Origin: Pelotomaculum sp. | GTDB taxonomy: Bacteria > Bacillota > Desulfotomaculia > Desulfotomaculales > Pelotomaculaceae | Reading direction: 5' to 3' | Assembly (NCBI GenBank): GCA_018435055.1 | Contig: JAHDOA010000047.1 | Location: 1 to 64,000 of the forward strand | DNA: 64,000 nt | Shown: one piece after another, positions 348 to 57,774 of the stretch | Position numbering within the stretch: the stretch's first letter is position 1 | Layout: every line of letters begins with the position of its first letter | Notes under the pieces: generated by a model | The model's database searches: none | What the model was told of the DNA's origin: nothing | Seen by the model: the letters and a program-made list of their open reading frames with translations, nothing else | Position numbers and translations under genes: made by a program

Positions 348-2183
348 ATGTGGAAAGATAGCGAGACAGAGCTTGATTTTCTGGATTATAACTACCTGGT
401 CGAAAGTATGGTTGAAATCATTAAAGATGATTCCCTGCTTCCAGCGTGTATTGGCCTTTATGGTGACTGGGGCAGTGGAAAATCCAGCTTGATCAGGATG
501 TGCAAGTCACAGCTTGAAAAAGAAGACGATAAAGTAAAATGTTTGATCTTCAATGGCTGGCTTTTTGAAAACTATGATGATGCCAAAACAGCTATTCTTG
601 GCGAAATACTTGATGCTTTTAAAGAAGAAGCAAAACTGTATGACAAAGCGGGGCGAGCTATTAAAGCACTTTACAAGAGCATTGATAAATTAAAAATTGC
701 CAAGAGTTCACTTAAATTTGGGCTGGACTTTTTCCTTACAGGTGGGTTGGGCACTCTTGTTGACTTAACGATAAAAAAAGTATTGGAGTCGGCTTCTGGG
801 AAACTTCCAGATATGGAATTAGATAATGTTGAAAAATCAATCAAGGATGAATTGGACTATAAAGAACTCAGAGAAGATATTCGGGAATTTCAGAAAATGT
901 TTGCTGAATTGCTTGAAGGAAGTAAAATATCACGTTTGGTTGTGTTTGTTGACGAACTTGACAGGTGTAGACCAGATACAATCCTTGATACGCTGGAAGC
1001 AATAAAGCTGTTCCTTTTCACTGGGAAGGCAGCATTTGTTCTTGGCACAGACGAGAGACACATTGCATATGCGGTAAAAAGCAAATTTAAGGATATTGAA
1101 GGACAAGAGATAGATATTGGAAAAGAGTACTTAGAAAAATTGGTTCAGTACCCTATCAAAATTCCGAGACTTGATTCCAAGGAAGTTGAAACCTACATAG
1201 GTTGTCTGTTGTTGCAGAGTGATCTAGATGATACTTCTTTTAATAAGCTTATTGACGCTTTTCATGAAGCTCAAAATGAGGATTTTATGACAGCATCTTT
1301 AACGGAAGTTGCTACTGAGATAGATGTTGATACAAAAGATACTTTGACCACAGCTCATCAACTTTCAAATCTTCTAGCGCATGGATTAAATGGGAACCCG
1401 AGACAATGCAAGCGTTTTCTGAACATGATGGATTTGCGGATAAAGCAGGCGTCTTATAAGAAAAAAGCTCTTGATAGACGGGTGCTTGCGAAGATGATGA
1501 TGCTTGAGTACTTCAGAAATAATGTCTTCAAAAAAATGGCTGTCATGGCGCACGAAGGCACACTACAGGCAGAACTTGCAGAATTTGAAAGTATTTGCAA
1601 TGCTGATGAACCTCGTGATGATAAAAGTAAATTGAAAGAATTACAAGATTGCATTACCGACGATTGGTTTATGACCTGGAGTCGCATTACCCCTAAGTTA
1701 GGTAATGAAGAATTGAAATTGGATTTGTATTTCTATTTTTCGAGAACATCACTGGAAGAACGTCTTAGTTTGCTAACCACAAGTCTTTCTCCAAAAGCAC
1801 GTGAGTTGTTGACTCTCTTGATGTCACAGTCGGAATTGGTTGTTCAAAAGGCGTTGAAAGATTCTGAAGAATTGCCATCCCATGAAGTTATTTCAATCAT
1901 TGATGCTTTTGGAAGCCAGCTACTTTCAATGGGGCAAGCAAATGAAACTCAGATGAAAACATTTCTTTCACTTGCTGGCAGCAAACAAGAATTTTGGTCT
2001 GAGGGAATGCTTTTGTTATGTAGATTTTCTGTAGAGCAATTAACTCCGTCCCTTGCAGCTCATATTGCCGAGTTTGCAAAGAAAAGTAGCCAAGAAGATA
2101 AACTACAAGAACTTTGTACGGGAAAATGGGCTGCAAACAAGAAGTTTACTATATTTTTGAAAAACAGCCTAAAACAGGGGTGA
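348..2183 (+). CDS. qatA: QatA, KAP-family P-loop NTPase of the Qat defence system
   Basis: This 611-residue protein is a KAP-type P-loop NTPase. Walker A is GDWGSGKS at residues 39-46. The Walker B segment LVVFVDELDRCRPD lies near residues 197-210, followed by the LGTDERHI sensor-like stretch and the GNPRQCKRFLN segment typical of KAP NTPases. The family assignment rests on these motifs. The role as QatA comes from the gene order that follows: a glycine-rich QatB, a QueC-like QatC and a TatD-like QatD. QatABCD is an experimentally known anti-phage system in which the ATPase is required. No membrane helix is obvious. The stop codon lies 4 bp before qatB, so the genes are probably co-transcribed. 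Confidence 0.88.
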   Translation: MWKDSETELDFLDYNYLVESMVEIIKDDSLLPACIGLYGDWGSGKSSLIRMCKSQLEKEDDKVKCLIFNGWLFENYDDAKTAILGEILDAFKEEAKLYDKAGRAIKALYKSIDKLKIAKSSLKFGLDFFLTGGLGTLVDLTIKKVLESASGKLPDMELDNVEKSIKDELDYKELREDIREFQKMFAELLEGSKISRLVVFVDELDRCRPDTILDTLEAIKLFLFTGKAAFVLGTDERHIAYAVKSKFKDIEGQEIDIGKEYLEKLVQYPIKIPRLDSKEVETYIGCLLLQSDLDDTSFNKLIDAFHEAQNEDFMTASLTEVATEIDVDTKDTLTTAHQLSNLLAHGLNGNPRQCKRFLNMMDLRIKQASYKKKALDRRVLAKMMMLEYFRNNVFKKMAVMAHEGTLQAELAEFESICNADEPRDDKSKLKELQDCITDDWFMTWSRITPKLGNEELKLDLYFYFSRTSLEERLSLLTTSLSPKARELLTLLMSQSELVVQKALKDSEELPSHEVISIIDAFGSQLLSMGQANETQMKTFLSLAGSKQEFWSEGMLLLCRFSVEQLTPSLAAHIAEFAKKSSQEDKLQELCTGKWAANKKFTIFLKNSLKQG

Positions 2184-2187
2184 TGCT

Positions 2188-3003
2188 ATGGGAACATCAA
2201 ATATATATCATGGACCCACAAAAAATCCGTTGCTTCCAGCAGATTATGATGATGGACAGGATAATACTGGTGGAGATGGCTCGCAGAACAATCAAGAGAA
2301 CGACCAAATTGGAGAGAAAACTGTAACTTGGGGAACAGTTAAGTCGGATTTTTCAAAATATATCAATAGTAAATCAAGAACCGGAGGACGAGGCGGCGGT
2401 TCGCTAAAAAATGTAGCCCGTCAATACGTCCGTGCATCCGGTGGAACACGCGCTGTAATGTCTGGCGCAATATCAGGAACCCGTTCAGGGCGTGCATTAC
2501 ACGGCTTCTATGGTAGCGTTGTTTCCAACGGTATTAGGCATACTCTGGAATCATTACATATCCAGTTTCATGGGAAAAGTGTAAATGAGATTATGTCGCT
2601 TCTTGTGAATACCATTTCGCCGGATGCGGTTACTAAAGAAGATATTGTTGCCAGAGAGGCTACTCAAGACGCATTGGCCCATATTTATGAATACATAGAA
2701 CGCAATTCGATGGATATTCAGTGTCTGGATAACATGCCGCAGGATCTCGTCGACACATCAATGTGTGCATACTTTGAATCGTATATTTGGGGAATAATGA
2801 TGAAGGATCTTGCAAGCAGACTTGAGATATATGAAAAAATACCTGATAAAGCTTATGAGATAGAACAAGAATTGAAAGGTTACATAAAAGGAACGGTACA
2901 AGTTGAATTCCAAAAGGATAGAGAAATCTTTAAGAAGAGCCCTGAGGAAGCCGTCGATGGCTTGATGAAGAAATGCATCGCGGTAGTGGAGGGAATAGCA
3001 TGA
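2188..3003 (+). CDS. qatB: QatB, component of unknown biochemical function
   Basis: This 271-residue protein has a low-complexity, Gly/Asn/Asp-rich N-terminus (about residues 1-50). A glycine-rich segment follows (TGGRGGGSLKNVARQYVRASGG, about 67-88), then a mostly helical C-terminal domain. It has no enzymatic motif I recognise. The QatB assignment is positional: it sits between a KAP NTPase and a QueC-like enzyme, 4 bp after the first and overlapping the second by 4 bases (ATGA). The glycine-rich region followed by AVMSGAISGTRSGRALHGFY resembles what is seen in other QatB proteins. Its biochemical role is unknown to me. Confidence 0.78.
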   Translation: MGTSNIYHGPTKNPLLPADYDDGQDNTGGDGSQNNQENDQIGEKTVTWGTVKSDFSKYINSKSRTGGRGGGSLKNVARQYVRASGGTRAVMSGAISGTRSGRALHGFYGSVVSNGIRHTLESLHIQFHGKSVNEIMSLLVNTISPDAVTKEDIVAREATQDALAHIYEYIERNSMDIQCLDNMPQDLVDTSMCAYFESYIWGIMMKDLASRLEIYEKIPDKAYEIEQELKGYIKGTVQVEFQKDREIFKKSPEEAVDGLMKKCIAVVEGIA

Positions 3004-4289
3004 TTATTAATTTTATACATGACGATAGCGACACTTTTACAAATGATAATATTGACTATACCTTCAATTATAACAGCGGAAAAAACATTCATTACACATT
3101 TTGGCAGAGTAATTTTGCTCCCGAAAACTGGTATAGTGAAGTTGCTATTGATTTGCTGTATATATCGTTATCTGTGTATGCGGCAGATAAGTTATGCAAA
3201 AGAAATGATGCCGATGATGCTTGGAGCCGAGAACTCAAACTATATATTCCTGTACTTCAAAGCAAAATATGGACAAATAATAAAAGACTCTTAGAAGATA
3301 CTTTCAATTTCTTGAGTGGCGATAAATGGAATTTTGAAATCCGTCCGCGAACAGAGAGCAGCACAGAGAAATACTATAAGAGCAGTTGGAATAAGAAAGA
3401 GGATACTACTCACTCCTATAATGAGGTTTGTATGTTTTCTGGAGGACTGGACTCTTTTATTGGGGCAATAGACTTGCTGGAAACAAAAAAGGCAGATGAG
3501 AGGATTCTTTTTGTGAGCCATTATGGTGGTGGCAAAGGGACAAAAGAATACCAGGACTATTTGATCAATAAGTTTTGTGATAACTATGGCATAGACAAAA
3601 ATGATTTCAGACAGTTTCATGCTGCGATTATCAATGGTGTAGAGGAAACAACAAGGACTCGTTCGCTTATATTCTTTGCACATGCTATTGTACTGGCGTC
3701 TACATTTGGTAAAAGCGTCACATTGATAATACCAGAGAACGGTTTGATTTCCTTAAATATTCCAAGCACCTTCTCGCGCATCGGTACAAGTAGCACTAGA
3801 ACAACACATCCGTTCTATATGAAAAAACTGCAAGAGTTACTTAACGAAGTTGGACTGCCTGTTACGATTAAGAACCCATATCAGTTTAAAACCAAAGGCG
3901 AGATGATGCTTGAATGTAAAGGGCAAGACTTTATGAAAGAGAACGTTTCACATACAATGTCATGTTCTCATCCGGATGTGGGACGCCACCGTGGTGAAAC
4001 ACATACAATGCATTGTGGATATTGTTTACCATGCGTCATTCGAAAAGCAGCCATAAAGAAGTCAGGTGTATTCGATAACAGTGAATACTATGATCCGAAT
4101 TGCGAGAAAGTTGATGTGGCTATGACCAATTTAAACTCTTATCGGCAGGGATTGAGAAGATTTAATCCCAAGTATGCATTTATGACGATTCAGCAGAACG
4201 GGCCAATTACAGACAATATTGATAATTATTCCGAGTTATACAAAAGAGGAATGGAAGAATTGAAAGAATACATAGAGGAAATAAAGTGA
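3000..4289 (+). CDS. qatC: QatC, QueC-like PP-loop enzyme of the Qat system
   Basis: This 429-residue protein has a PP-loop ATP-pyrophosphatase motif, SGGLDS, at about residues 147-152. A C-terminal cysteine cluster (CSHP...HCGYCLPC, about 321-346) resembles the zinc site of QueC, the 7-cyano-7-deazaguanine synthase. In Qat systems this protein is thought to carry out a related deazaguanine-type or nucleophile-coupling reaction; the substrate is not evident from sequence. I chose ATG at 3000, which overlaps the qatB stop (ATGA) and is preceded by GTGGAGGG, over an upstream in-frame ATG at 2973. The first 130 residues form an N-terminal extension not present in housekeeping QueC. Confidence 0.85.
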   Translation: MIINFIHDDSDTFTNDNIDYTFNYNSGKNIHYTFWQSNFAPENWYSEVAIDLLYISLSVYAADKLCKRNDADDAWSRELKLYIPVLQSKIWTNNKRLLEDTFNFLSGDKWNFEIRPRTESSTEKYYKSSWNKKEDTTHSYNEVCMFSGGLDSFIGAIDLLETKKADERILFVSHYGGGKGTKEYQDYLINKFCDNYGIDKNDFRQFHAAIINGVEETTRTRSLIFFAHAIVLASTFGKSVTLIIPENGLISLNIPSTFSRIGTSSTRTTHPFYMKKLQELLNEVGLPVTIKNPYQFKTKGEMMLECKGQDFMKENVSHTMSCSHPDVGRHRGETHTMHCGYCLPCVIRKAAIKKSGVFDNSEYYDPNCEKVDVAMTNLNSYRQGLRRFNPKYAFMTIQQNGPITDNIDNYSELYKRGMEELKEYIEEIK

Positions 4290-5023
4290 TTATGTTTTTG
4301 TTAGATACACATATGCATTTTGACCTATATGATAATAGAGAAAAAGTATTGGAGGAGATCGAGCAAAGTTGTAGTTATACAATTGCTGTCACAAACCTGC
4401 CCGAATTATATGCACGTTATCAACAACAGCTTGACTGGAACAAATACAAATACTGTAGATTGGCATTGGGCTTGCACCCTGAACTGGTTGCAAAATATGG
4501 AAATCAGATTGACGGCTTCATAGAAATGCTACCCTATGCTCGATTTATAGGAGAAGTTGGACTGGATTTCACATCCAATGATGTGCAACAGAGAAAATCT
4601 CAGATGCAAGTATTTCAGAGGATTATTGATGAATGCAGCAAATCTGGAAATAAGATTTTATCAATACACACTAGGAAGGCGGCTAAAGAAACGTTACAAA
4701 TAATGGCTTCCTTTTCTGGTAGGGCAATTTTTCATTGGTATTCCGGTTCACTTAAAGATTTACGTGAAGCTCTTGAAAGGGGATACTTCTTTTCTGTTAA
4801 TCATCAAATGTTGAAAAGTGAAAGTGGTAGAAAGATAGTTGACTCTATTCCAATCGAAAGAATACTGATCGAAAGTGATGCGCCATTTACCAAAGGCTTA
4901 GAAAGCCACTATTCGCTTTTTTTTGTTGAAAGAGTATATGAATACCTGTCAAATGCTAGGCATATCGGAGAGGAACAACTTTCAAGGATAATAAAAAAAA
5001 ATTTTAAGGAGTTGCTTGAATAG
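4286..5023 (+). CDS. qatD: QatD, TatD-family metal-dependent nuclease of the Qat system
   Basis: This protein of about 245 residues carries the TatD/metallo-dependent hydrolase signatures in order: DTHMHFD near the N-terminus, GLHPE, GEVGLDF, HTRKA, FHWYSG and ESDAPF. These supply the metal-binding His, Glu and Asp residues. TatD proteins are 3'-5' DNA exonucleases or deoxyribonucleases. The last gene of the Qat operon is of this type and is probably the nuclease effector. The start is either GTG at 4286, overlapping the qatC stop (GTGA), or ATG at 4292; both lie within range of GAGGAA at 4275-4280. A 14-bp perfect palindrome (AACTTCATGAAGTT, 5026-5039) follows the stop, without a clear T-tract. 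Confidence 0.88.
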   Translation: MIMFLLDTHMHFDLYDNREKVLEEIEQSCSYTIAVTNLPELYARYQQQLDWNKYKYCRLALGLHPELVAKYGNQIDGFIEMLPYARFIGEVGLDFTSNDVQQRKSQMQVFQRIIDECSKSGNKILSIHTRKAAKETLQIMASFSGRAIFHWYSGSLKDLREALERGYFFSVNHQMLKSESGRKIVDSIPIERILIESDAPFTKGLESHYSLFFVERVYEYLSNARHIGEEQLSRIIKKNFKELLE

Positions 5024-5158: not shown

Positions 5159-5260
5159 GTGAGTAAAGGCGGTAAAAGCAACAACATTGAAACAGTTGTT
5201 GATGAAATCGTCGACAGAATAAAAAATCTATCAAATAGACAGGAGCAAGACGAATGCTGA
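5159..5260 (+). CDS. Possible 33-residue ORF overlapping the start of hsdM
   Basis: A GTG-initiated frame encodes about 33 residues (MSKGGKSNNIETVVDEIVD...) and ends at TGA inside the first codons of hsdM (ATGCTGA overlap), an arrangement typical of translational coupling. No good ribosome binding site precedes the GTG. It may be a short leader peptide, the tail of a lost upstream gene, or chance. Elsewhere in the 230-bp gap between qatD and hsdM I see only AT-rich sequence that presumably holds the hsd promoter. Confidence 0.25.
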   Translation: MSKGGKSNNIETVVDEIVDRIKNLSNRQEQDEC

Positions 5261-5877
5261 CAGGTGAAGTTCGCAACAAGGTTGATAAAATATGGACGGA
5301 TATATGGGCCGGGGGTATTACCAACCCGCTGACCGTTATTGAGCAGATTACATATTTGATGTTCATTCGTTCGTTAGATGAAAAGGAACTGGAGAGCGAG
5401 AGTTTTGAGGCTATAAGTGGTGAAAAGCAGCCCAAAATATTCCCCCAGGATGAAGACGGGCAGAACATGCGCTGGAGCAAGTTCAAAAACAAGGATGCCC
5501 GTATCATCTATGATATTGTCAGTACAAAGGTATTCCCTTTTATCAAATCAATGAACGGGAACAATACTTCCGCTTTTTCCCGCTATATGCAGGATGCTAT
5601 ATTCTTAGTGCCAACGCCCCAGGTATTGCAGAAGATTATTACCGGCCTGGACGATTTGTATGAACAAGATATTAAGGACCTGGATATGCAGGGGGACCTT
5701 TATGAATACATGCTGAGCAAGCTGTCCACCGCGGGGCAAAATGGCCAGTTTAGAACGCCGAAGCAAATCCGGGATATGATGGTGCGACTGCTGGCCCCAA
5801 CGCCGGATGATAAAATATGTGATATAATCACTACGAAAACGATACAATTTAATTACCCAATTTTGAAGGCTTCCTAA
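5254..5877 (+). pseudogene. hsdM: hsdM 5' fragment: N-terminal domain of type I DNA methyltransferase, cut by the insertion
   Basis: Residues 1-190 are the N-terminal helical domain of a type I modification subunit: VIEQITYLMFIRSLDE, LYEYMLSKLSTAGQNGQFRTPKQIRDMMVRLLAPTPDD. The native sequence ends at K-I-C-D, exactly where DPACGTAGF (SAM-binding motif I) should follow. It instead runs 17 foreign codons into the inserted element and stops at 5877. The missing remainder is found at 58744-59646 in the same orientation. ATG at 5254 is preceded by GACAGGAGC. If translated, the fragment lacks every catalytic motif and cannot methylate DNA alone. It should be restored by precise excision of the element. 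Confidence 0.93.
5798..5845. other. attL: attL: left junction of the element in hsdM
   Basis: The inferred crossover is GA at 5821-5822. To its left is hsdM sequence encoding PDDKIC. To its right is element sequence of 23 bases (5823-5845) that ends in GATAC, contains CG at 5833-5834 and begins TAT. This arm mirrors the element arm at the right junction, as expected when each attL/attR carries one half of a symmetric attP. The assignment is from sequence logic only. Confidence 0.75.
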
Positions 5878-5912
5878 GGGGGTTAAGGTTCAAAAAAGGG
5901 GGTTTAGCTTTT

Positions 5913-5938
5913 GACCGGAATTGTCCGGTTATTTTTAT
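5913..5938 (+). terminator. Intrinsic terminator just inside the left end
   Basis: ACCGGA (5914-5919), a 4-base loop and TCCGGT (5924-5929) form a perfect 6-bp stem followed by TATTTTTAT. It lies about 90 bp inside the element and points in the direction of hsdM transcription. It could stop host transcription from entering the element's first gene, whose own ribosome binding site follows at once. Confidence 0.6.
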
Positions 5939-5954: not shown

Positions 5955-6734
5955 ATGAATATTAATCCAGAACAGTTTTTACTGAACAATTTTATCAACA
6001 AGTGTATTCGGCAGTATGCGGATTTTATGGGCATTGATAAAATGCCTTCGTTTGATATTGCTCCGATTAATCTTTCGTTAGATGAAGCAAATAAAAAGGG
6101 CTACGGTTCGTTTGCAACGCATTATTACGATATAAATACTGGCGCTCATCGATTAGAAGTATGGAAAGACTTATACAGGCCGCAACTTAATGCCGAGTAT
6201 CTGCTATATCATGAATTCACACACATAGTGGACACCGAAACGTACTCGAATAGAGATAAAATGAAGAATGTTGCTATTAAAGGGTATACAGAGTACCATG
6301 CAGCACAGATTGATTTCTTGAGGATTTTAGGAGCAAAAAGCATTAATAGCTTCTCATCGTTCTCCTTAAATCAAGAACTCGAAACTATATTAAGAAGAGA
6401 GTCCGCATTAGACTATGTTCTTGATGCACATAATACTGCGGCAACACTTATTGCTCGGCCCGATTTCCCGGCGGATATTGCGACACTGGCAACAACGATT
6501 GGATTGCTGTTTAACTACTTAGGACGGTTGTCTATTTGCAAAATGTATGCTGAAGATTACGGGTCTCATATTGATAAGTTCAGTGATACGACCATTGAAC
6601 AACAGTTTTTCGGGAAAGATGTATACCAAGCTCTTGCTACATTCTTAAGTGGTTGGTTGTCTGAACCTCATATCAAAATACTCGGCGATGCTTATCTCAA
6701 GATAATAGTGACTAAAGGACAGGGGCTATCCTAA
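5955..6734 (+). CDS. Predicted HEXXH zinc metallopeptidase-like protein, left-end cargo
   Basis: This 259-residue protein has a HEXXH motif, HEFTH, within LLYHEFTHIVDTETY (about residues 84-98). That is the zinc-binding helix of zincin metallopeptidases. The residues around it recall ImmA/IrrE-like and other small zincins, but the rest is unfamiliar to me and mostly helical, with no signal peptide. I chose ATG at 5955, which has GAGGGGTG six bases upstream, over GTG at 5946. It is the first gene in the element and stands 139 bp before a GIY-YIG/TPR gene on the same strand, so the two may form one cargo unit. The intergenic 6735-6873 has no gene I can support. The function is unknown; protease activity is inferred from the motif only. 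Confidence 0.7.
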   Translation: MNINPEQFLLNNFINKCIRQYADFMGIDKMPSFDIAPINLSLDEANKKGYGSFATHYYDINTGAHRLEVWKDLYRPQLNAEYLLYHEFTHIVDTETYSNRDKMKNVAIKGYTEYHAAQIDFLRILGAKSINSFSSFSLNQELETILRRESALDYVLDAHNTAATLIARPDFPADIATLATTIGLLFNYLGRLSICKMYAEDYGSHIDKFSDTTIEQQFFGKDVYQALATFLSGWLSEPHIKILGDAYLKIIVTKGQGLS

Positions 6735-6873
6735 AAAGAAGTTGTAGAACCGGAAACGGAAATATACATAATACGCAAAAACTCATCACCAGCGATTTGA
6801 AAATCATCGGGGACAGACGAATAGAAATTTGTTGTAATGGAGAAATGCAAAAAGCTTTTAGGCAGGTATAAAT

Positions 6874-8145
6874 ATGGGTTTATTCAAAAATATCTTTAAA
6901 AAGAATAATAGTGAGTTAGATTCTGTTGATGTTCGAAAGCCGGAATCGCAATCTCAGGGCACAGCAAGCACAGATAAACCAAGTATCAAATTAGCCGATT
7001 TTGTTACTATAACAATTGAAAATGGAGCAGTCGGTTCTTCTACTGGCAGTACTTACCATGACTTTTATGTCTATGAATGGTTTATAAAAGACACTGGAGA
7101 AATCTTCTATGTTGGCAAAGGCCGTGGCGACAGATACAAGGAGCATCATGAACGTGCTTATGAAGCCGAGAAAGTCCGTAAAATGTATAACACTGATGTT
7201 CGATTCGTTGCAACAGATCTATCCGAGCATGAAGCTCTGGATCTGGAATCAAAAGAGATGACTCGCATACTTAATGAAACAAACGATAGGCTTACAAATC
7301 GCATCATTCCTTTTTTTACTGAACGTGATAACGGTTATGGAAGAAGCCCGAGCACGCCGCCATTCAAATTTGAGGCTGCGCCGATATTATACGCATGTGA
7401 GATTGATGAACACTATTTCGGTATAAAAGGCAGACCTTTTGACAAGGTTGAATATAAGAACTTATCCAGCGTTGCATTTATTGACAAGAACATTTCCAGA
7501 GAAGAATTGGAAATTGTGTATGGTGGAAACTATGAATATTACCAACACGAGGTAATTTCTCTCCTTGAAGCTAACGGAAATAAAATTCTGAAGTCTAAAT
7601 ACGCAAAATCTGTATCCGCTTGGATATACAGTAGTGATGACTATGTTACAAACAACGATCTCGACGAGAAACAGGCAGAGGAACGTATCGGTAGGAAAAT
7701 TCCTTCTTACCATCTGATCGACGTGTGGAAGCTTTTAAAAGCTGACTTTAGCAATGTTGAAACCGAGATACCAAAGCAAATAGAGATTCATCCTGTTAAC
7801 AACCGTGTCCCCCTTTCCCAGATTCGGAATAAGAACAATTGGGAAAAAGGTTTTGATGATGGGTTCAAATATTGGGAACAAGGCGATGCTGAAAGGAAAA
7901 CTGGAAATATCGAGGAAGCTATAAGACTATTTGATAAAGCTCGTTATAATGGTTACTTCGCTCCTGTTCTTTATAATTCCTATGCTATGGCTTATCGCAA
8001 ATTGAAAGACTTAGATAACGAAATAGACATTCTCACAGAGGGTATTGAGCGATATCGTGCCACTAGAGAAGGTGTCCAAATGATTGTTAAGCTGAAGGAA
8101 CAGAGAAAGAAAGCTATCGCCAAATTACAAAAAGAGAGAAAATGA
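6874..8145 (+). CDS. GIY-YIG nuclease-domain protein with C-terminal TPR-like region
   Basis: This 423-residue protein has three parts. A basic N-terminal stretch (MGLFKNIFKKNN) precedes a polar linker. A GIY-YIG-like domain spans about residues 64-150: DFYVYEWF, IFYVGKGRGDRYKEHHER, and a Glu within SEHEALDLESKEM. A C-terminal region (about 325-415) contains helical repeats resembling TPRs (EQGDAERKTGNIEEAIRLFDKARYNG). The middle (150-325) is unfamiliar. GIY-YIG domains are DNA nucleases in homing, restriction and repair enzymes, and joining one to TPRs suggests a regulated nuclease. It converges on the recombinase genes. Its place in a defence-bearing element makes an antiviral role plausible but unproven. 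Confidence 0.72.
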   Translation: MGLFKNIFKKNNSELDSVDVRKPESQSQGTASTDKPSIKLADFVTITIENGAVGSSTGSTYHDFYVYEWFIKDTGEIFYVGKGRGDRYKEHHERAYEAEKVRKMYNTDVRFVATDLSEHEALDLESKEMTRILNETNDRLTNRIIPFFTERDNGYGRSPSTPPFKFEAAPILYACEIDEHYFGIKGRPFDKVEYKNLSSVAFIDKNISREELEIVYGGNYEYYQHEVISLLEANGNKILKSKYAKSVSAWIYSSDDYVTNNDLDEKQAEERIGRKIPSYHLIDVWKLLKADFSNVETEIPKQIEIHPVNNRVPLSQIRNKNNWEKGFDDGFKYWEQGDAERKTGNIEEAIRLFDKARYNGYFAPVLYNSYAMAYRKLKDLDNEIDILTEGIERYRATREGVQMIVKLKEQRKKAIAKLQKERK

Positions 8146-8200: not shown

Positions 8201-9793
8201 TTATGTCTGAATTTCAGTGCCGTCTTTAAAAGTGAACCGTACATCGTCTTTATCATAAACAGTAGCGTAGTCCACAAGGCTGCACCACAGCTTTTCGTCA
8301 AATTCGGTAAGTAGGTTATTTTGTTTGCGGAGGGTGTAGAGGAAGGCATTAATCGTACTGAGCCTTGTCTGTTTACCAGTGATTTCTTCGGTAACCGCAG
8401 TATGGCGAGCCTTAGCAAGGTCAAAGCGGTCAACAAGTCCGTTGTATCGCTCTTGGTATTCTCCTTGGTCCAGAGCGAAGTGTGCGTTCTCACCGATGGC
8501 TTGCTGTATCATCCCAGCCACAACCTCGAGTTCGTTTTGCAGTTCAGCTTGCTCTTTTTCCAGGTCGGTTGTATCAAAAACTGTAGCCTTTATGAGTTCA
8601 AAATTTCCTAGGATTTCATCTCTTTCGGAAAGCAGCTTATTGACCGCAGATATGAAAAGTTTTTTGATTCTTTCTTCGTCAAGATGCGGTGTCCGGCATT
8701 GATTGTCACTATCGTATTTGCGATTGCATTGGTAAATGGTGCGGCGGTATTTGCTGGTGGAGTGCCATACCTTTGAGCCATACCAAGAACCGCACTGCCC
8801 GCATTTTATCCTACTTGAAAATATGCTGACCCCGCTTCGGCGGTTAGGGCCTGGACTGCGGTTTTCCAGTTCAATCTGAACTATGTCGAACACCGCAGGG
8901 TCGATGATTGCCTCGTGGTTATTTTTCACATAATATTGTGGAATTTCGCCTTCGTTAAGTTTCTTTTTCTTGGTGAGGAAATCAATAGTATAACTTTTTT
9001 GCAGAAGGGCATCGCCCTTGTATTTTTCGTTTTGGAGCATTCGTCGGACCGTTGCCGCATTCCATTTTGGCTTTTTACCGGGGGAAAGAATGCCATCCGC
9101 AGTAAGTGTCTTTGCAATCTTATAGGGTGAATAACCCTCCAGGAAAAGGGCAAAAATGCGTCTGACGATGACTGCTTCTTTTTCGTTCAATACAAGGTTG
9201 CCGTCCTCACCCCGGTCGTAACCGAGAAAATGCCCAAAGGGAACGGTGACCTTGCCGTCTGAGAAGCGCTTCCTTTGACCCCAGGTTACGTTTTCTGAGA
9301 TGCTGCGGCTTTCTTCCTGCGCAAGGGAGGACATGATGGTAATTAGCAGTTCACCCTTAGAATCCAGTGTCCAGATGTTTTCCTTTTCAAAGTAAATCTC
9401 AATCCCTTTTTCCTTTAGCTGACGCACTGTAGTAAGGCTGTCTACCGTATTACGGGCAAATCGGCTGACCGACTTGGTGACTATAAGGTCAATCTTTCCG
9501 GCAAGGGCATCTGCAATCATCTGCTTGAATCCCTCCCGATGTTTGGTGTTTGTGGCGCTTATGCCTTCATCAGTGTAGACATCAACAAATTCCCAATCAT
9601 CCCGGCTTTTGATGTATTTGGTATAGTAATCAACCTGCGCTTCATAGCTGGTGAACTGTTCTTCACTATCGGTGGAAACACGGGCGTATCCGGCTGTACG
9701 ACGTTTTCTTTGCTCGTTGATAGGAGCAGCTGTGAAACGGCTAATCGTGGCAGGAATGGTCGTTACTTTTCTAGCTGTTTTCGCGCCGCTCAT
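8201..9793 (-). CDS. Large serine recombinase 1
   Basis: This 530-residue protein has an N-terminal resolvase catalytic domain with nucleophile Ser40 in GYARVSTDSEEQ, then VDVYTDEGISATN, LIVTKSVSRFARNTVD and LAQEESRSISENV. A recombinase DNA-binding domain follows (KIAKTLTADGILSPG, about 215-300), then a zinc ribbon (CGQCGSWYG...CNRKYDSDNQC, about 325-370) and a C-terminal coiled coil (about 400-490). Large serine recombinases integrate and excise phages and integrative elements, usually with a 2-bp crossover, which fits the GA core at this element's ends. The start overlaps the end of the upstream recombinase by 23 bp, so the two are translationally coupled. Either or both could be the integrase. 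Confidence 0.92.
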   Translation of the reverse strand: MSGAKTARKVTTIPATISRFTAAPINEQRKRRTAGYARVSTDSEEQFTSYEAQVDYYTKYIKSRDDWEFVDVYTDEGISATNTKHREGFKQMIADALAGKIDLIVTKSVSRFARNTVDSLTTVRQLKEKGIEIYFEKENIWTLDSKGELLITIMSSLAQEESRSISENVTWGQRKRFSDGKVTVPFGHFLGYDRGEDGNLVLNEKEAVIVRRIFALFLEGYSPYKIAKTLTADGILSPGKKPKWNAATVRRMLQNEKYKGDALLQKSYTIDFLTKKKKLNEGEIPQYYVKNNHEAIIDPAVFDIVQIELENRSPGPNRRSGVSIFSSRIKCGQCGSWYGSKVWHSTSKYRRTIYQCNRKYDSDNQCRTPHLDEERIKKLFISAVNKLLSERDEILGNFELIKATVFDTTDLEKEQAELQNELEVVAGMIQQAIGENAHFALDQGEYQERYNGLVDRFDLAKARHTAVTEEITGKQTRLSTINAFLYTLRKQNNLLTEFDEKLWCSLVDYATVYDKDDVRFTFKDGTEIQT

Positions 9794-11495
9794 GTTTATC
9801 CCTCCATACCTGTATCATTTTCTTGCTTTGACGCTGTTTTCGTTCTTCTGACCATGCCGGCTGCCGGCGTTTAAAATGCCACTGACGAGTAACATCGCTA
9901 CCATCCTTGAGGCGGAAAATCAACACCTCATTGGAAACTACTGTAATGCGCTCAACCTTATCGGTGAATGCCGCTTCATCGAATTCGTTGATGCCAAGGG
10001 CATCCGCTGAGATGGTTTTCAGCAGGTTTTCTTCCAAACCATTATGTCCGCAATCGGTGCGTGGTGGGCAGCGCCAGTGACGGGCCTTTTCTCCGCTTAC
10101 ACGAGTGCTGGTGTTCCTGCGTAAATTTTGGCCGCATTTACCGCAGCTTATCTTGCTGGTGAAGCAGGTAATTGTTCCAGAACTGCGAGGATGCTTTTTG
10201 CTGTAGGCGGATTTTGCTGCACGGGCCTCTGGTGTCCACCAATCCTTTCTCGCAGTAGATTCCCAATGCTGAGTAATGACCTTTCCATCATAGAAATGAA
10301 AGATAAGCTCGTCTTTGCCATTTACCACGATTTTTTCGATTCTATCCAGGAACACATCCTCGTCAAATTCCTCTAAGCCAAGCACCTGGGCACAAACCTT
10401 TTGCAGTATTCTTTCAGGGATATTTTTAGCTCCACATGCGGATACGCCCTTGCGGTCTTTGGTTTGACAGGTCCAAATATAATAGACTTGGCTTGACTTC
10501 TTGCGTTGCCGTTTACCGCTTCGCCGGTAGCTAACACCACAGTTGCCGCACTTTACCTTGCTTGTAAAGCAGGTGGTGTTAATCGACCAATTTGCAAAAA
10601 CCCCTAACTCTTTGCGCCGTGCGATTTCAGCTTGCACTTTTTCAAAAATCTCTAAGTCGATAATGGCTGGGTGCGTGTTCTCCGCATAGTACATGGGCAG
10701 TTCGCCGCGGTTAATTTTGCTTTTGTGGGTAATATGGTTTTCAATATAGGTTTTTTGCAGGAGCATATTACCCGTATAGCGCTCCTGCCGCAGAATGGCT
10801 CTAATCGAGGTGTTGGAGAAATGGCCACCTGTGTATGATTTGATGCCCATTTCTTTCAGTTGCATTTCCGTTTGCTCGGCTGACAGCCCTTTTAGAAAAT
10901 TATCGTATATGAGCCGTATGACCTCAGCTTCCTCCGGCACGATATTGAACTGTTCGCCATCCCATCGATAGCCGTAAATGCAGAAGGAATTTGTTTTTCC
11001 TTGTTCAAACCCTTTGCGAATCGCCCATTTCACATTCTCACTGGTGGAGCGGCTTTCTTCCTGAGCAAAGGATGCAAGCAATGTTAGCATAAGCTCGCCG
11101 TCCTCGCTTAAAGAATTGATGCCTTCCTTTTCAAACCGGACCTCAATTCCAAGCTCTTTTAGATGTCTGACTGTTTCAAGTAAATCCACCGTATTACGGG
11201 CAAAGCGTGAAATGGATTTTGTGAGGATGATGTCAATTTTGCCTTGCTCACAATTTTCAAGCATTCTTCTAAACTCAGCACGATTATCGGTCGTGCCGGA
11301 AATGCCCTCGTCTGCATAAACGCCTGCGTATTGCCATTCACGATGCTTTTGGATATAAGAACTGTAAAAGCTAATCTGTGCGGATAGGGAATGAAGGGTA
11401 CGGCCTTTTTCTTCCGAAACTCTCGCATAGGCAGCGACCTTTTTTCGCTCCGGCAATTGTGGCGGCTTGGCTTCTAATTTGCTGACTTTTCGCAT
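9771..11495 (-). CDS. Large serine recombinase 2, with duplicated zinc-ribbon module
   Basis: This 574-residue protein has a resolvase domain with nucleophile Ser27 (AAYARVSEEKG), VYADEGISGTTDN, ILTKSISRFARNTVD and FAQEESRSTSENV, and then a recombinase domain. The C-terminal half is unusual: two copies of a zinc-ribbon plus short tail module occur in series. The first begins CFTSKVKCGNCGVSYRRSG and ends FHFYDGKVITQHW; the second begins CFTSKISCGKCGQNLRRN and ends FRLKDGSDVTRQW. It has no long coiled coil, unlike its neighbour. I chose ATG at 11495, with AAGGAAG upstream, over a TTG at 11519. It is the first recombinase of the pair and may work with recombinase 1 as a two-protein system similar in principle to CcrAB. 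Confidence 0.9.
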   Translation of the reverse strand: MRKVSKLEAKPPQLPERKKVAAYARVSEEKGRTLHSLSAQISFYSSYIQKHREWQYAGVYADEGISGTTDNRAEFRRMLENCEQGKIDIILTKSISRFARNTVDLLETVRHLKELGIEVRFEKEGINSLSEDGELMLTLLASFAQEESRSTSENVKWAIRKGFEQGKTNSFCIYGYRWDGEQFNIVPEEAEVIRLIYDNFLKGLSAEQTEMQLKEMGIKSYTGGHFSNTSIRAILRQERYTGNMLLQKTYIENHITHKSKINRGELPMYYAENTHPAIIDLEIFEKVQAEIARRKELGVFANWSINTTCFTSKVKCGNCGVSYRRSGKRQRKKSSQVYYIWTCQTKDRKGVSACGAKNIPERILQKVCAQVLGLEEFDEDVFLDRIEKIVVNGKDELIFHFYDGKVITQHWESTARKDWWTPEARAAKSAYSKKHPRSSGTITCFTSKISCGKCGQNLRRNTSTRVSGEKARHWRCPPRTDCGHNGLEENLLKTISADALGINEFDEAAFTDKVERITVVSNEVLIFRLKDGSDVTRQWHFKRRQPAWSEERKQRQSKKMIQVWRDKHERRENS

Positions 11496-11536
11496 ATAAT
11501 CACTTCCTTTCTGATACAATACATCACTCTAAAAGC

Positions 11537-24826: not shown

Positions 24827-25246
24827 TTAGATGTGCTCCCGCATGGAAATAACGGGAGGTAACAGCCCCCTATATCCGATATTTACTATTTTGCACTCAT
24901 TGAGATAATAATAACCATTGGTTTTATCTGTATTTTCAAATGGCTGCATTTCATATATCAAAGCACTTTCCACATCTGTTATTAAATTATCGTCATAGGT
25001 CTTTGGCGAAACGATTATGCCCAGCCTAACAAACAGCTTTCCTCGATATAGATTCAGCCAATCTTTGTGGGAATATAAGCGGTTGTAAAAACTGTTACTT
25101 GTTTTCCCAATATACAACAGCGTTTCCTTATCTCCAAACTTCCTGGATAAATAATATATTCCCTTTTCATTAACTCTAATAGAGGAAAAAATGTTTTCAT
25201 ATAACACCGGATAAGACCAATTAATCTTAACCGTTTTTATGCGCAT
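24827..25246 (-). CDS. GIY-YIG nuclease-domain protein between terminase and portal genes
   Basis: This 139-residue protein has a single GIY-YIG domain: KGIYYLSRKFGDKETLLYIGKTSNSFYNRLYSHKDW (about residues 27-62) and a Glu in DVESALIYEMQPFENTDKTNGYY (about 91-113), the expected metal ligand. GIY-YIG proteins alone in phage late regions are often mobile homing endonucleases, and some take part in packaging. It is flanked by a terminator downstream, and a further T-tract (25262-25268) sits in the gap before it, as might be left by an insertion. The gap 25247-25315 has nothing else. Confidence 0.8.
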   Translation of the reverse strand: MRIKTVKINWSYPVLYENIFSSIRVNEKGIYYLSRKFGDKETLLYIGKTSNSFYNRLYSHKDWLNLYRGKLFVRLGIIVSPKTYDDNLITDVESALIYEMQPFENTDKTNGYYYLNECKIVNIGYRGLLPPVISMREHI

Positions 25247-36590: not shown

Positions 36591-39500
36591 CTAATCTTTT
36601 TTATAAAATTCACATTCGTAGCCATCGGCACTAAGCAGCAGCCCGTTTGCCCATTTAGGCCTTTCTGCCATAATTCGACATACTTCATCGATGGAAGATT
36701 TGCCAAGCGGGACCTCGCAAACAACTTCATCGTGGCAGTGCATAACAATCTCAAAACCAGCAGCGGAAAGACGCAGCATAGCTTCCGTCAAAATGTCACG
36801 GGCAGTGGCCTGCACGATGTTTTCCACAAACTTGGGACCGTAACTTTCGATGCGTTCCCATTTCTTAGTGCCGCCGACGCCTTCGTAAGTCACGCAATCA
36901 GAGCCAAACCGGTTGACTCCGATTCTCGGCTTTACATACACAAGGTTTCTGCCGGATGGAAGAGTAATAAAGAGCATTCCGCTCTGATAGGTAAAGCGGA
37001 TGCCGTGTGTTTCTGCGGTTGTTTTCTGCCTGACTGCTGTCATTGCCGCCTTGTCGACATCCCACCACAGCTTAACGATGCGAGGGTTGGACTGACGCCA
37101 AGCGGTTACAAGGGGTTGTAGTTCTTCTTCCAGAACACCCATCTGCAAAGCGCCCATAGCTTTAAGTGCGCCTATACTGCCGCCGTATCCGCAGTTGTGG
37201 ACAAGTTTGCCCGATACGGTAAAACGGTGATTTCTTCCGGCATTTCGTATGTCATAAAGTCGAGCCTGGCGCTGATAACTTTCCATTTTTTGCTCTGTCT
37301 TTTCTCCGGCTTTATAATTCTCACCCAACCGTATTGCTCGTTGACCATCTCCGGTTTGTATGAGATGTGAGCCGCTGGTGGCGGCGATTCCAAGTGGTAT
37401 CGGCTCCGGTTTCCCTTCGACCCAAACAAGGTGGTCGGGCGTGGCAATAAGTCCTTCATATTCAATCACCTCTTTTTTCCCGCGAAATACAATGCCGTCA
37501 TGGGTTACCCAGTCTTCTCCATCCCATAACTTGTGTTTCTTTGTGACTTTCTCAATAGGCACTAAGCCTTTATCCGTTAATACAAGCTGTCCTTCAGCAA
37601 TACACGCCAACTCAGCTTGCTTACCTTTTTGCCGTAAATGTCCATTAATACCGTTCTTCTCAACCGGCACATGGAACATTTGTGAAGCGGACGCACAGTA
37701 AATATCACCGCCATTTGCAAAGACCTCCATTCGCCACTTCTCACCGGCAAACCAGGCGATGATCCGGGCTTCAATTGCAGAAAAGTCTGCAACGATAAAG
37801 CGCGAGCCGTCCTTTGGCACAAATGCCGTGCGGATGAGTTCCGAGAGAACGCCAGACGTGCTGTCATAGAGCATATCTACGGCATCAAACAGTCCAGCTT
37901 TTATAAGGTTTCTTGCATCTTCTAAATCAGGCAGGTGGTTTTGCGGGAGATTTTGCACCTGCACTAGGCGTCCCGAGTTTCCTGTCACCCAGACCTTGCC
38001 GTTCCTTCTGGCCATAAAATATCCCGTGGGCGTTTCTGCGCAATAGACAACCCCGTTAAACTCCATTATTTTAGGCTTGCTTCTTATTTCGTGGCAATTT
38101 TTAGGTGTCAGCCAGATATCCACAACATAAGCGTCACTCCAGTTTGGATGTTCTGCGCTTCTATTCTTGACCTTAAGTAGTGCACATCTGCCCGTTATAT
38201 GTGCAAACGCCTGGATAATATCGGCGTTTTGTTTATTAGAAGTCACATACTGAATACTATTTTTTGCACTTCTATAACCATCCCAATGAACCAATTCATC
38301 GAAAAAGACATCTGCACTCTCGTCAAATAGCCATGTGCCAAAGGTTTTATTCTGAAACATTCTTAGACAGATTGGAATGTGACGGGCATAGAGCGTAAAC
38401 ACATATCGTGTATGCATTTCCTCGTTGTAGGTGCTCAGCGAATACATAATATCGGCAGCACGAAGTAATTCCTTGCACCGTGCCACTTTACGCTCTTTAT
38501 AAAAAGTCAGCCTTATATTTCCTTCAGCGGTATAGTGTCCGTCAGCTTGCACCATGACAAGCACCCTGAGGTACTGATGCTCCATGCCGGGACTAGTCCG
38601 CCTGTAACCTGTAAATGGTATGCTTGGGCGGTATTTTTCCATGTTGGAAACGGTATCAACTAGCCACTCGCCACCGTATCTTCTCTTGACATACATCTTG
38701 TGGTCTGGAGTGCTTAACTGTGATATCCTCTTGTCTGTGTATTCATACAGGCTACCATTGTATGGAAACTGCAGAGCGGCGGATTTTTGAAAGGAAACAG
38801 TCTCGCCGATAGGATTCCAGCAGGCTATTTTTCCACCATTCCACTCATCAAGCCGTTTCCAGCCGTCTAAGGTCAGGACTTCATGATCACCAGTCAGACA
38901 CCATCTACCTGTTCTATTGGCACCGTAAAACTGGATAAGACCTCTGGCCCTGCCATCCGAACCGACCACGTTTTTCATAGCGGTGTATTTCTTGACCGAT
39001 GATTTGGCTAGTTCCTGGCGAAGGGACAGCACTTCTTTTAGATCAGGTGGAGCAGTTTTAATAAGTTCTGTAACCGCTGCTTTGCAAAGGGTATCTGTTT
39101 CAAGGCCGTTATCGGCAAGCCACTCCTTCATCTGTTGTACGGAGTTGGGGTTTTCAAGATTGGTCAAGTTTTGCATGTGGTTGCGAAGTCGGGCTTTTGT
39201 AACCTCATCACAGCGAATAGCTTGTTTTACAAAATCCATATCAAGGGCTATTCCTCGGTCATTGATAATCTGGTCGAGTCTGTAATTATTCCATTCCGTA
39301 TCCGATACCGGGAACTTTGAGAGTTTTTCTTGAATGCCTATTTCGGTTTCCACATCGCGCTTGTTGTAGGCTTTGAAAAGTCCCCATTTCTCCATATCAT
39401 GCCGTGGCAGATTTCTTATGCGACCGCCGTTTGCCTTGGTAGCAGCACAAGGTGTACAGAAATACTTGACGAGGTTTTTGCCTTCTTTAAGTTTCTGTTT

Positions 39501-39875
39501 TTCAAGTCCAAGAACTGCACCGACTCTTTCGAGGGAAAGTGGAAGGCCGAGTGTAGCTGACCATACCATTGTGCAATGCCATCCTGTAGGGTCGAGATAA
39601 GTACCTGTGGGAAACCCGAGAAAACGGGATAAGCAGATACGCTCGAACTGCGCATTAAATGCCCATTTTGTAATGGTGGGGTCTGATAAAGCGGACACGA
39701 TGACGGGAGGGATTTTCTCACCGCAGGCAAGGTCTATGACCTGTACTTCGCCGCCGTCAATGGAATAACCAAAGAGCAGCACTTCGAAGTCAGGTGATTC
39801 GCAGTAACGGTAAACACCGCATTTACCAAGGTCGACCGAGGAAAAGGTCTCTATATCAATACTGATAGTTTTCAA
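36591..39875 (-). CDS. Family A DNA polymerase interrupted by two inteins
   Basis: This 1094-residue precursor has a 3'-5' exonuclease domain at about residues 1-200 (SIDIETFSSVDLGKCGVYRY). The polymerase domain includes motif A DFSAIEARIIAWFAGE (about 697-712), motif B RQKGKQAELA/CGYGGSIGALK and motif C VMHCHDEVVCEVP (about 1044-1056). Two inteins interrupt it: C326-N633 (308 residues) just before SGRLVQVQNLPQ, and C758-N894 (137 residues) inside motif B. The spliced enzyme would have 649 residues, the usual length for phage polymerases of this type. Splicing is required for activity because both insertions sit in conserved motifs. The start is TTG at 39875 with AGGAAGGATG upstream. Confidence 0.93.
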   Translation of the reverse strand: MKTISIDIETFSSVDLGKCGVYRYCESPDFEVLLFGYSIDGGEVQVIDLACGEKIPPVIVSALSDPTITKWAFNAQFERICLSRFLGFPTGTYLDPTGWHCTMVWSATLGLPLSLERVGAVLGLEKQKLKEGKNLVKYFCTPCAATKANGGRIRNLPRHDMEKWGLFKAYNKRDVETEIGIQEKLSKFPVSDTEWNNYRLDQIINDRGIALDMDFVKQAIRCDEVTKARLRNHMQNLTNLENPNSVQQMKEWLADNGLETDTLCKAAVTELIKTAPPDLKEVLSLRQELAKSSVKKYTAMKNVVGSDGRARGLIQFYGANRTGRWCLTGDHEVLTLDGWKRLDEWNGGKIACWNPIGETVSFQKSAALQFPYNGSLYEYTDKRISQLSTPDHKMYVKRRYGGEWLVDTVSNMEKYRPSIPFTGYRRTSPGMEHQYLRVLVMVQADGHYTAEGNIRLTFYKERKVARCKELLRAADIMYSLSTYNEEMHTRYVFTLYARHIPICLRMFQNKTFGTWLFDESADVFFDELVHWDGYRSAKNSIQYVTSNKQNADIIQAFAHITGRCALLKVKNRSAEHPNWSDAYVVDIWLTPKNCHEIRSKPKIMEFNGVVYCAETPTGYFMARRNGKVWVTGNSGRLVQVQNLPQNHLPDLEDARNLIKAGLFDAVDMLYDSTSGVLSELIRTAFVPKDGSRFIVADFSAIEARIIAWFAGEKWRMEVFANGGDIYCASASQMFHVPVEKNGINGHLRQKGKQAELACIAEGQLVLTDKGLVPIEKVTKKHKLWDGEDWVTHDGIVFRGKKEVIEYEGLIATPDHLVWVEGKPEPIPLGIAATSGSHLIQTGDGQRAIRLGENYKAGEKTEQKMESYQRQARLYDIRNAGRNHRFTVSGKLVHNCGYGGSIGALKAMGALQMGVLEEELQPLVTAWRQSNPRIVKLWWDVDKAAMTAVRQKTTAETHGIRFTYQSGMLFITLPSGRNLVYVKPRIGVNRFGSDCVTYEGVGGTKKWERIESYGPKFVENIVQATARDILTEAMLRLSAAGFEIVMHCHDEVVCEVPLGKSSIDEVCRIMAERPKWANGLLLSADGYECEFYKKD
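37194..37604 (-). other. Mini-intein 2 in DNA polymerase (no endonuclease domain)
   Basis: This element of 137 codons, residues C758-N894, begins CIAEGQLVLTDKGLVPIEKV (block A) and contains the block B stretch EYEGLIATPDHLVWVEG. It ends VYD-like LYDIRNAGRNHRF...LVHN followed by Cys895. All splicing residues are visible: Cys1, the block B His, the terminal Asn, and a Cys at +1. It is too short to hold a homing endonuclease. It interrupts polymerase motif B between ELA and CGYGG. Confidence 0.93.
37977..38900 (-). other. Intein 1 in DNA polymerase, with LAGLIDADG-type endonuclease domain
   Basis: This element of 308 codons, residues C326-N633, starts CLTGDHEVLTLDGWKRLDEW and has block B LSTPDHKMYVKRR. 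A dodecapeptide-like VLVMVQADGHY and a central domain of about 170 residues indicate a LAGLIDADG homing endonuclease. It ends YCAETPTGYFMARRNGKVWVTGN, followed by Ser634. The penultimate residue is Gly rather than the common His, a known variant. The insertion point is in the conserved (T)GR(W)SGRLVQVQNLP motif. Confidence 0.92.
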
Positions 39876-45808: not shown

Positions 45809-45933
45809 TAGGGTATACTAGGAGTTAATCAAAATGCTTCATATCAAATCATATTAAAACCTTTTAGTTCGAAATGGGACGCGCTAAAGTATTAAGGCAT
45901 GAACTGTGCGGACAAGAAAGAGGAGGAACAGAC

Positions 45934-46125
45934 GTGACTAACGAACCGGAAAAATGGTCAAGCCTCGAGGAAATCGCCGAACATCTCGGCGTAAGTAAAG
46001 ATACAATTAGAGCTTGGATAAAAAAAGATGTGATTCCGCATCGTCGTATCGGCAAACAGTATAAGTTCAAAAAATCGGAAGTGGACGCTTGGGTTGATAG
46101 CGGCGAGAGTGCGAAAATTGAGTAA
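45934..46125 (+). CDS. Excisionase/MerR-type HTH protein at the head of the BREX operon
   Basis: This 63-residue protein is MTNEPEKWSSLEEIAEHLGVS then KDTIRAWIKKDVIPHRRIGKQYKFKKSEVDAWV. It is a winged HTH of the helix_turn_helix_17/excisionase type. GTG at 45934 with AGAGGAGGAAC upstream is chosen over an ATG at 45874 that has none. It lies 24 bp before brxF. It could regulate the BREX operon or help target methylation; similar small HTH proteins precede many restriction operons. An excisionase role for the element is a less likely alternative. Confidence 0.75.
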   Translation: MTNEPEKWSSLEEIAEHLGVSKDTIRAWIKKDVIPHRRIGKQYKFKKSEVDAWVDSGESAKIE

Positions 46126-46149
46126 TAAGAGAATGGGAGGCGATTAAGA

Positions 46150-46581
46150 ATGGGCACGGTTATAGAGCGCCGAGATTTATCGGCGGTCATCAAGCAGGCG
46201 CTGCAAGGTGTGTTCGTATTGGCTCCCAACGTGACCGTACCAGTAAATGCTTCTGTCGTGAATGTTGGGCTTCTACTTGGTGAAAGGATGTTTAGATTAA
46301 AGACCGAAGGTTCACCCAACAGCATAACACGTGAGCTGGATGACATTTTAGGCGAAGAACACCGCGACATCCTTCTTAAAAACACAGACATTCTCTTTTC
46401 CCCGGAATACGGACTGGATGTGATTAAGTTACTTCTGCAGCTTGGCAGAAACCAACGGTTCTATCTACCGTGGCCGGGTGAACTTGTTGGAGAACGACTT
46501 ACATACTCTGAACCGAGCAGATTTGATTTTAAAGAATACAACGTCAAGGACTATGTGGATACATACGTCGTCTTGAGATAG
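46150..46581 (+). CDS. brxF: BrxF-like protein of BREX type 3, lacking a recognisable P-loop
   Basis: This 143-residue protein matches the C-terminal two thirds of BrxF: ILLKNTDILFSPEYGLDVIKLLLQLGRNQRFYLPWPGELVGERLTYSEPSRFDFKEY (about 73-130). This corresponds to the family's pattern of an LLxNxxxLFxPxxxxDxxxLLxxLxRN block, a WPG and a LTYxEP. BrxF is normally a small P-loop ATPase. Here the region where the GxxGxGK(S/T) loop belongs (about residues 20-45) reads GVFVLAPNVTVPVNASVVN and has no Walker A. It is the first of the six canonical type 3 genes and is 10 bp from brxC. GGGAGG precedes ATG. Confidence 0.78.
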   Translation: MGTVIERRDLSAVIKQALQGVFVLAPNVTVPVNASVVNVGLLLGERMFRLKTEGSPNSITRELDDILGEEHRDILLKNTDILFSPEYGLDVIKLLLQLGRNQRFYLPWPGELVGERLTYSEPSRFDFKEYNVKDYVDTYVVLR

Positions 46582-46591
46582 GAGCGGGAAT

Positions 46592-52834: not shown

Positions 52835-52847
52835 GAGGATACACATA

Positions 52848-53114
52848 ATGAAAGACTTAAGCAGAAATGTATCTCTTTTGTGTCCTGTATGCGGTAATGA
52901 TCAGTTTTCCACAGTTAATGATGATATTGAAAACCTCAAGGATGCACCAGATGAAACAAGAATTAAATGCTCGGATTGTGGAGCCACACGCACGAAAGCA
53001 GAACTGATTGAAGAAAATCAGGAAATCATTAATGCAAATATCGAAGACATTAAGAAAGAAGCCATCTCTAAAATTGAGAAAGAACTAAAAAAAGCTTTCA
53101 AGAAGCTTAAGTAG
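52848..53114 (+). CDS. Small zinc-ribbon/coiled-coil protein inserted in the BREX operon
   Basis: This 88-residue protein has a zinc ribbon, CPVCGNDQFSTVNDD...RIKCSDCGATRTKAEL (about residues 11-46), followed by a highly charged helix with a Lys/Glu heptad character (ENQEIINANIEDIKKEAISKIEKELKKAFKKLK). It is not one of the six canonical BREX type 3 proteins. ATG at 52848, with AGGAGG at 52833-52838 overlapping the pglXI stop, is chosen over upstream codons. It lies 13 bp after pglXI and 8 bp before the next gene, so it is expressed with BREX. The function is unknown; nucleic acid or protein binding is plausible. Confidence 0.8.
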   Translation: MKDLSRNVSLLCPVCGNDQFSTVNDDIENLKDAPDETRIKCSDCGATRTKAELIEENQEIINANIEDIKKEAISKIEKELKKAFKKLK

Positions 53115-53122
53115 GAGACAAT

Positions 53123-53608: not shown

Positions 53609-53625
53609 CACGAAGAGGTGAGGAT

Positions 53626-57770: not shown

Positions 57771-57774
57771 TTAT

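Follow-up and report, generated by a model that had tools for sequence, protein, structure and literature searches.

Do two neighbouring genes that lie just inside the left attachment site of a prophage, one encoding a HEXXH metallopeptidase-like protein and the other a GIY-YIG nuclease with C-terminal TPR-like repeats, act together? The earlier note on the window, by which we mean the whole 64,000-nucleotide stretch of Pelotomaculum DNA analysed here, had taken them for an uncharacterised two-gene defence or addiction unit. Both reading frames are present on the + strand as it described: the HEXXH gene at 5955–6734 (259 aa) and the GIY-YIG/TPR gene at 6874–8145 (423 aa), separated by a 139-bp gap (6735–6873) without translational coupling. 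The first frame could open at ATG 5955 or GTG 5946, the ribosome-binding-site spacing, judged by eye, being better for the ATG. One frame in the gap reads ...NTQKLITSDLKIIGDRRIEICCNGEMQKAFRQV*, with its stop just before the GIY-YIG start, and is perhaps what is left of the 3′ end of a gene. Just upstream of the HEXXH gene, an inverted repeat with a T-rich tail (ACCGGA-ATTG-TCCGGT; 5912–5931, + strand) is either terminator-like or part of a promoter/operator, and a promoter-like TTGACC-N17-TTTATA can be read by eye in the same region. The note's insulating terminator finds little support here, the repeat being weak and one of two terminator-like matches, against a chance expectation of 1.4.

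Both genes are carried on one 52,923-bp element that splits the host gene hsdM. The 5′ half of hsdM (5254–5822) aligns with residues 27–193 of the solved HsdM 5ybb, and the 3′ half, starting at 58746, with residues 194–491. Fusing the flanks at their common GA (5821–5822 and 58744–58745) restores an intact 490-codon HsdM that reads ...KICDPACGTAGFL and ...KICDPACGTAGFLVSS..., which bears out the placement of attL; the pair begins 133 bp inside it. The crossover dinucleotide at attL (5821–5822) belongs to the codon for the D of hsdM motif I (KICD/PACGTAGF), so that the prophage is inserted at the first codon of DPACGTAGF, and the reconstructed attP is palindromic, symmetric at 17 of 31 positions (p=0.0004 relative to shuffled sequence). 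In phages L134, L135 and L137, three relatives, the end likewise falls inside a truncated gene for a DNA methyltransferase-like protein, directly ahead of the DPACGTAGF motif; methyltransferase motif I thus seems to be what recombinases of this group target.

The element is a prophage with tandem large serine recombinases near one end (8201–11519, − strand) and a BREX cluster at the other (BrxF, BrxC, PglX, BrxH, PglZ and BrxA; 43313–58491, + strand, with a DUF1837/NTPase protein in front), showing that a prophage inserted in a host restriction gene can bring its own BREX. In the circular form, 254 bp separate the end of brxA from attP and a further 133 bp separate attP from the start of the HEXXH gene, which places the pair ~390 bp downstream of brxA on the same strand. 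Since both lie near attP in the same direction, the cargo forms one block across attP. The G+C content is 0.385 and 0.386 for the pair and 0.414 for BREX, compared with 0.45 for the phage.

Several other features of the window deserve mention. The protein directly 5′ of the BREX genes, inside the prophage (43313–45805, 831 aa), combines an N-terminal HamA/DUF1837-like part (E 3e-15) with an NTPase/NACHT-like part. A phage DNA polymerase ORF (36591–39875, 1094 aa) can be read as holding two intein-like inserts, C-LTGDHEVLTLDGW...VWVTGN-S and C-IAEGQLVLTDKG...KLVHN-C. A small GIY-YIG protein (24827–25246; GIYYLSRK...LLYIGKTS) lies between the portal and terminase genes and resembles a typical phage homing-type nuclease. 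Outside the element, a full qatABCD defence operon (348–5023) lies directly upstream of the split hsdM.

The HEXXH and GIY-YIG/TPR genes occupy a cargo slot between integrase and att, running from the distal stop of the recombinases to the attachment site. Recombinases that are 60–72% identical to those of the window are found in Ca. Heliusvirales phages, and in five such phages the stretch between recombinase and prophage end holds differing genes, nearly all convergent with the recombinases, a DUF262 protein being the slot gene in one of them. The attL arms of the window and five relatives have in common a sequence of the type GA-(A/T)-ATAATCA...GATACAA, most diverged in L137. A further related phage (L141) carries small slot genes on the same strand, and the records of Streptococcus phages Javan159 and Javan244 stop at the recombinase. 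The reading of the two genes as cargo inside attL, not part of the phage operon, is therefore supported, and as occupants of such a slot they can be adjacent without any common function. Two of the related phages carry co-directional slot genes (L134:8706–11259 and L136:8654–10983), encoding a protein of 453–480 aa and a glycine-rich partner; the L136 slot protein has no relative among solved structures.

In the HEXXH protein, H86, E87, H90 and E113 (the last in Y[ST]E-x-HA) do not vary among 10 homologues that are 15–37% identical to it, so that the HEFTH noted earlier, at residues 86–90, is not a chance match. An AlphaFold2 model from 10 sequences (pLDDT 88, pTM 0.89) predicts a zincin-like helix arrangement, which, combined with HEXXH and the downstream Glu ligand, points to a gluzincin. 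A search of the model against solved structures gave none that was significant (best E 0.021), while one viral 'Peptidase' model matched along its length (E 8.5e-8) and matches to IrrE-like and SprT-like cores were weak. Profile matches to MqsR (E 0.09) and HNH (E 0.045) were at chance level and were discarded.

Relatives of the HEXXH gene were compared at eight loci (the window, L006, L010, L011, L012, L013/L021, L018 and L023). The gene lies between tail genes in L010, beside tape-measure-like ORFs in L011, L013/L021 and L023, beside a Tn554-like transposase set in L006, and on an integrase-bearing element in L018. The family was found in the window only among 113 genomes of the class and ~400 of the phylum, and in none of the plasmids searched. 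Varied sites in the relatives, together with this absence from class and phylum genomes, make the pattern of a moron. We conclude that the HEXXH protein, which has no predicted membrane segment, is a soluble phage moron, gluzincin-like by its model and without a close solved relative. Tandem HEXXH paralogues are found in phages at L013:7935–10070 and L023:5872–7677, by long tape-measure-like ORFs and small zinc-ribbon proteins.

With relatives inserted at varying sites, often by tail or tape-measure genes, the HEXXH protein perhaps acts on superinfecting phages or on a host protein. A specific form of this idea, that the moron keeps out superinfecting phages by cleaving one of their proteins on entry, for instance a tape-measure protein delivered with the DNA, would fit the long tape-measure-like ORFs that adjoin the HEXXH genes of L010, L011, L013/L021 and L023, mostly on the opposite strand, and SNIPE, a defence protein of a different kind, reportedly works through tape-measure proteins (PMC13190303). 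We nevertheless think it unlikely, as this adjacency may reflect merely a permissive insertion spot and the protein lacks a membrane segment; our literature search returned nothing relevant on HEXXH proteins with tape-measure proteins. Quite unlikely, too, is a role as an ImmA/IrrE-like protease in lysogeny control, not defence, through cleavage of the prophage repressor. The HEXXH with its downstream Glu, the gluzincin-like model and its weak IrrE-like and SprT-like fold matches all speak for such a role, as does a typical HEXXH ImmA-like ORF in the lysogeny module of L030; yet the protein has no Pfam or PHROG match to the ImmA/IrrE (M78) family, no repressor gene adjoins it, and other phages place the gene by tail or tape-measure genes or the Tn554-like set.

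The second protein opens with MGLFKNIFKK and a linker (residues 1–60), followed by a GIYxY-YIG nuclease (~63–150), a conserved middle domain (~160–300) and a TPR-like C-terminus (~320–420). The GIY-YIG motif was read correctly, IFYVGKGRGDRY lying at residues 77–88 with the downstream Glu at E125, and the C-terminal helical repeats reappear as TPR matches at residues 333–395. Across 51 GIY-YIG proteins, Y67, Y79 and E125 never vary, and conservation is 90% or more at Y65, R87 and N142; the active site (Y65/Y67, Y79, R87, E125, N142) is complete by sequence. A structure model from four sequences was poor (pLDDT 49), so these domain readings rest on sequence. Matches to PPR and designed-repeat proteins in the PDB search were repeat-driven noise. 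No transmembrane segment was predicted, and an amphipathic, membrane-binding N-terminus was rejected on a hydrophobic moment no greater than that of shuffled sequence, leaving it as a guess. The literature search found nothing relevant on GIY-YIG nucleases joined to tetratricopeptide repeats.

Six aligned GIY-YIG/TPR proteins are 55–64% identical to that of the window over their full length. A nuclease-domain tree unites the six long proteins in a closed group (support 97) and places L026 and L030 close by, at an open fork. The latter two (294 and 278 aa; 32% and 28% identity) are colinear across nuclease and middle domain and have no TPR part, indicating that the middle domain (~160–300) defines the family and that the TPR part is an addition. 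Both of these core-only relatives sit in phages, L030 between a repressor, the HEXXH ImmA-like ORF and an integrase. The TPR part itself (residues ~293–422) is 55–59% identical in two DEDDh exonuclease proteins, L004 and L008, which also open with an MG(L/I)F-type sequence. These DEDDh exonuclease/TPR/NUMOD-like proteins, each with an HTH gene before it, are encoded on an Anaerostipes contig (L004:6756–8645) and on ~100 mostly enterococcal plasmids (L008:5825–7627).

Full-length GIY-YIG/TPR genes were compared at eight loci: the window, L002 (Ruminococcaceae), L003 (Paenibacillaceae), L007 (a Priestia plasmid), L009 (a viral contig), and L113, L114 and L115, from three genomes of a single genus, two of which encode nearly identical proteins. 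Their contexts are chromosomal, plasmid and prophage, with no shared insertion site. IetA/IetS lies directly upstream of the gene in L003, 275 bp away; SduA (Shedu; E 1e-109) and a DrmC-like PLD protein lie near it in L114, and a PD-T7-4-like protein is the neighbour in L115; in the window, BREX lies next to the gene across attP. The scanned neighbours also include a three-gene Lamassu set (LmuB 7e-153, LmuC 2e-51, LmuA 3e-44), which we infer, from a P-loop protein and the gene layout, to belong to L113 (15703–18463). In L009 the gene stands beside a phage integrase, and in L002 and L007 no clear defence system adjoins it. Scanned likewise, 78 ORFs drawn from five random stretches in three of these genomes included no such system, only scattered generic matches (such as mad3, mad8 and AriA). 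This post hoc comparison on a small scale (54 against 78 ORFs) is suggestive of defence-gene enrichment around GIY-YIG/TPR genes.

The earlier note had named a homing endonuclease as the finding that would speak against it, and a free-standing enzyme that spreads its own gene has some features in its favour: the nuclease domain falls in the FYVY...FYVGKG group, which has many phage members with NUMOD modules (NUMOD3 occurs in 20 of the 51 superfamily members), and the best annotated phage matches carry the name homing endonuclease. We consider such an enzyme quite improbable, as the window protein gives TPR matches only and no DNA-binding module (NUMOD, HNH, AP2 or similar), and the long proteins form a closed clade in unrelated contexts without a common insertion site. 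From its context and apparently intact active site, the GIY-YIG/TPR protein is probably an undescribed single-gene anti-phage nuclease.

Whether the two families travel together was examined by running profiles of both on the locus sequences, with flanks of a few to ~10 kb, some ending at a contig edge. Within these flanks, a HEXXH gene accompanied the GIY-YIG/TPR gene at none of the seven loci besides the window, and the reverse likewise held at 0/7. No small ORF is kept beside the GIY-YIG/TPR gene across loci, and no small antitoxin-like gene was found by these two proteins of 259 and 423 aa, as might be looked for in a toxin-antitoxin or addiction module. A two-gene unit was thus rejected among the loci compared: its being a unit in which the HEXXH peptidase activates or restrains the nuclease by proteolysis is very improbable, since its partners meet only in the window, are 139 bp apart and share a slot that carries unrelated genes in related phages, even though they are adjacent on one strand with like G+C, protease-nuclease pairs exist in other systems, and IetAS, an ATPase-protease pair, adjoins the relative in L003. 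The defence role proposed for the pair thus survives for the GIY-YIG/TPR gene on its own, through its neighbours and the random-stretch control, and falls for the two genes together, which should not be pursued as a peptidase-nuclease unit.

We therefore favour, with some reserve, a reading in which a temperate phage carries the two genes as independent cargo between integrase and att, the GIY-YIG/TPR protein being most likely a stand-alone anti-phage nuclease found in a prophage and in bacterial defence islands and the HEXXH protein a separate moron. As such independent cargo, the GIY-YIG/TPR nuclease would cut incoming phage DNA; its middle domain and TPR repeats might restrain the nuclease and recognise the invader or a partner, taking the place of a sequence-specific NUMOD module, and its short basic-hydrophobic N-terminus could dock the protein, possibly at the membrane. 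More tentatively, and as a possibility that we would rate below an even chance, it may represent an undescribed, modular single-gene anti-phage family in which an MGLF-type docking N-terminus and a TPR sensor are combined with swappable nucleases (GIY-YIG here, DEDDh in Anaerostipes and on enterococcal plasmids) and spread by prophages and defence islands. The integrase-att interval of these gut-type phages is a cargo slot and a place for a systematic search for prophage-borne defence genes.

Compared with known groups, the HEXXH protein resembles ImmA/IrrE (M78), SprT-like proteins and the minigluzincins (selecase) in having the HEXXH within a helix and, 23 residues further, a Glu on a following helix, with a weakly similar core fold; it differs in its family-specific helical C-terminal half and has no significant match among solved structures. 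Phage GIY-YIG homing endonucleases, with NUMOD3, NUMOD1 or I-HmuI-type modules, belong to the same nuclease subgroup (FYVY...FYVGKG), whereas the GIY-YIG/TPR protein has its own middle and TPR domains in place of NUMOD/HNH and occurs in defence-island contexts. The DnaQ-type proteins L004 and L008 share its C-terminal TPR module and type of N-terminus, but carry the DEDDh exonuclease in place of the GIY-YIG domain and an added NUMOD-like tail.

SNIPE, a membrane-bound GIY-YIG defence nuclease (PMC13190303), is likewise a single-gene anti-phage nuclease with accessory domains, and both proteins may have an N-terminal docking segment. In SNIPE the nuclease is C-terminal and is accompanied by an N-terminal membrane segment and DUF4041, whereas the GIY-YIG/TPR nuclease is N-terminal and neither a DUF4041 match nor a transmembrane segment was found; with this different architecture, membership was rejected. 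CMoRE/PD-T4-3, a type IV modification-dependent GIY-YIG restriction enzyme (PMC12923530; PDB 9U7U, 9U75), is also encoded by a single gene with an N-terminal GIY-YIG domain, and its three-tyrosine GIYxY-YIG motif has the same spacing (Y17/Y19/Y31, here Y65/Y67/Y79), the motif stretch aligning with 9U7U. This alignment stops after ~35 residues; the sequence of the middle domain is unrelated, and the GIY-YIG/TPR protein has a TPR C-terminus and an MGLF N-terminus in addition. Of the PADLOC PD-T4-3 profile, only positions 15–50 of 256 are matched (E 0.002), and neither this profile nor the PDB alignment matched the C-terminal modified-cytosine-sensing domain of CMoRE. CMoRE has an inhibitory, negatively charged loop over its active site; residues ~114–128 of the GIY-YIG/TPR protein are acid-rich (model pLDDT 49). 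Since the motif alone is shared, and is common in phage homing endonucleases, membership in CMoRE was rejected as well. If our reading is true, a new architecture joins the few single-gene GIY-YIG defence nucleases, CMoRE and SNIPE, one in which TPR repeats would set specificity in place of a DNA-modification sensor or a membrane anchor.
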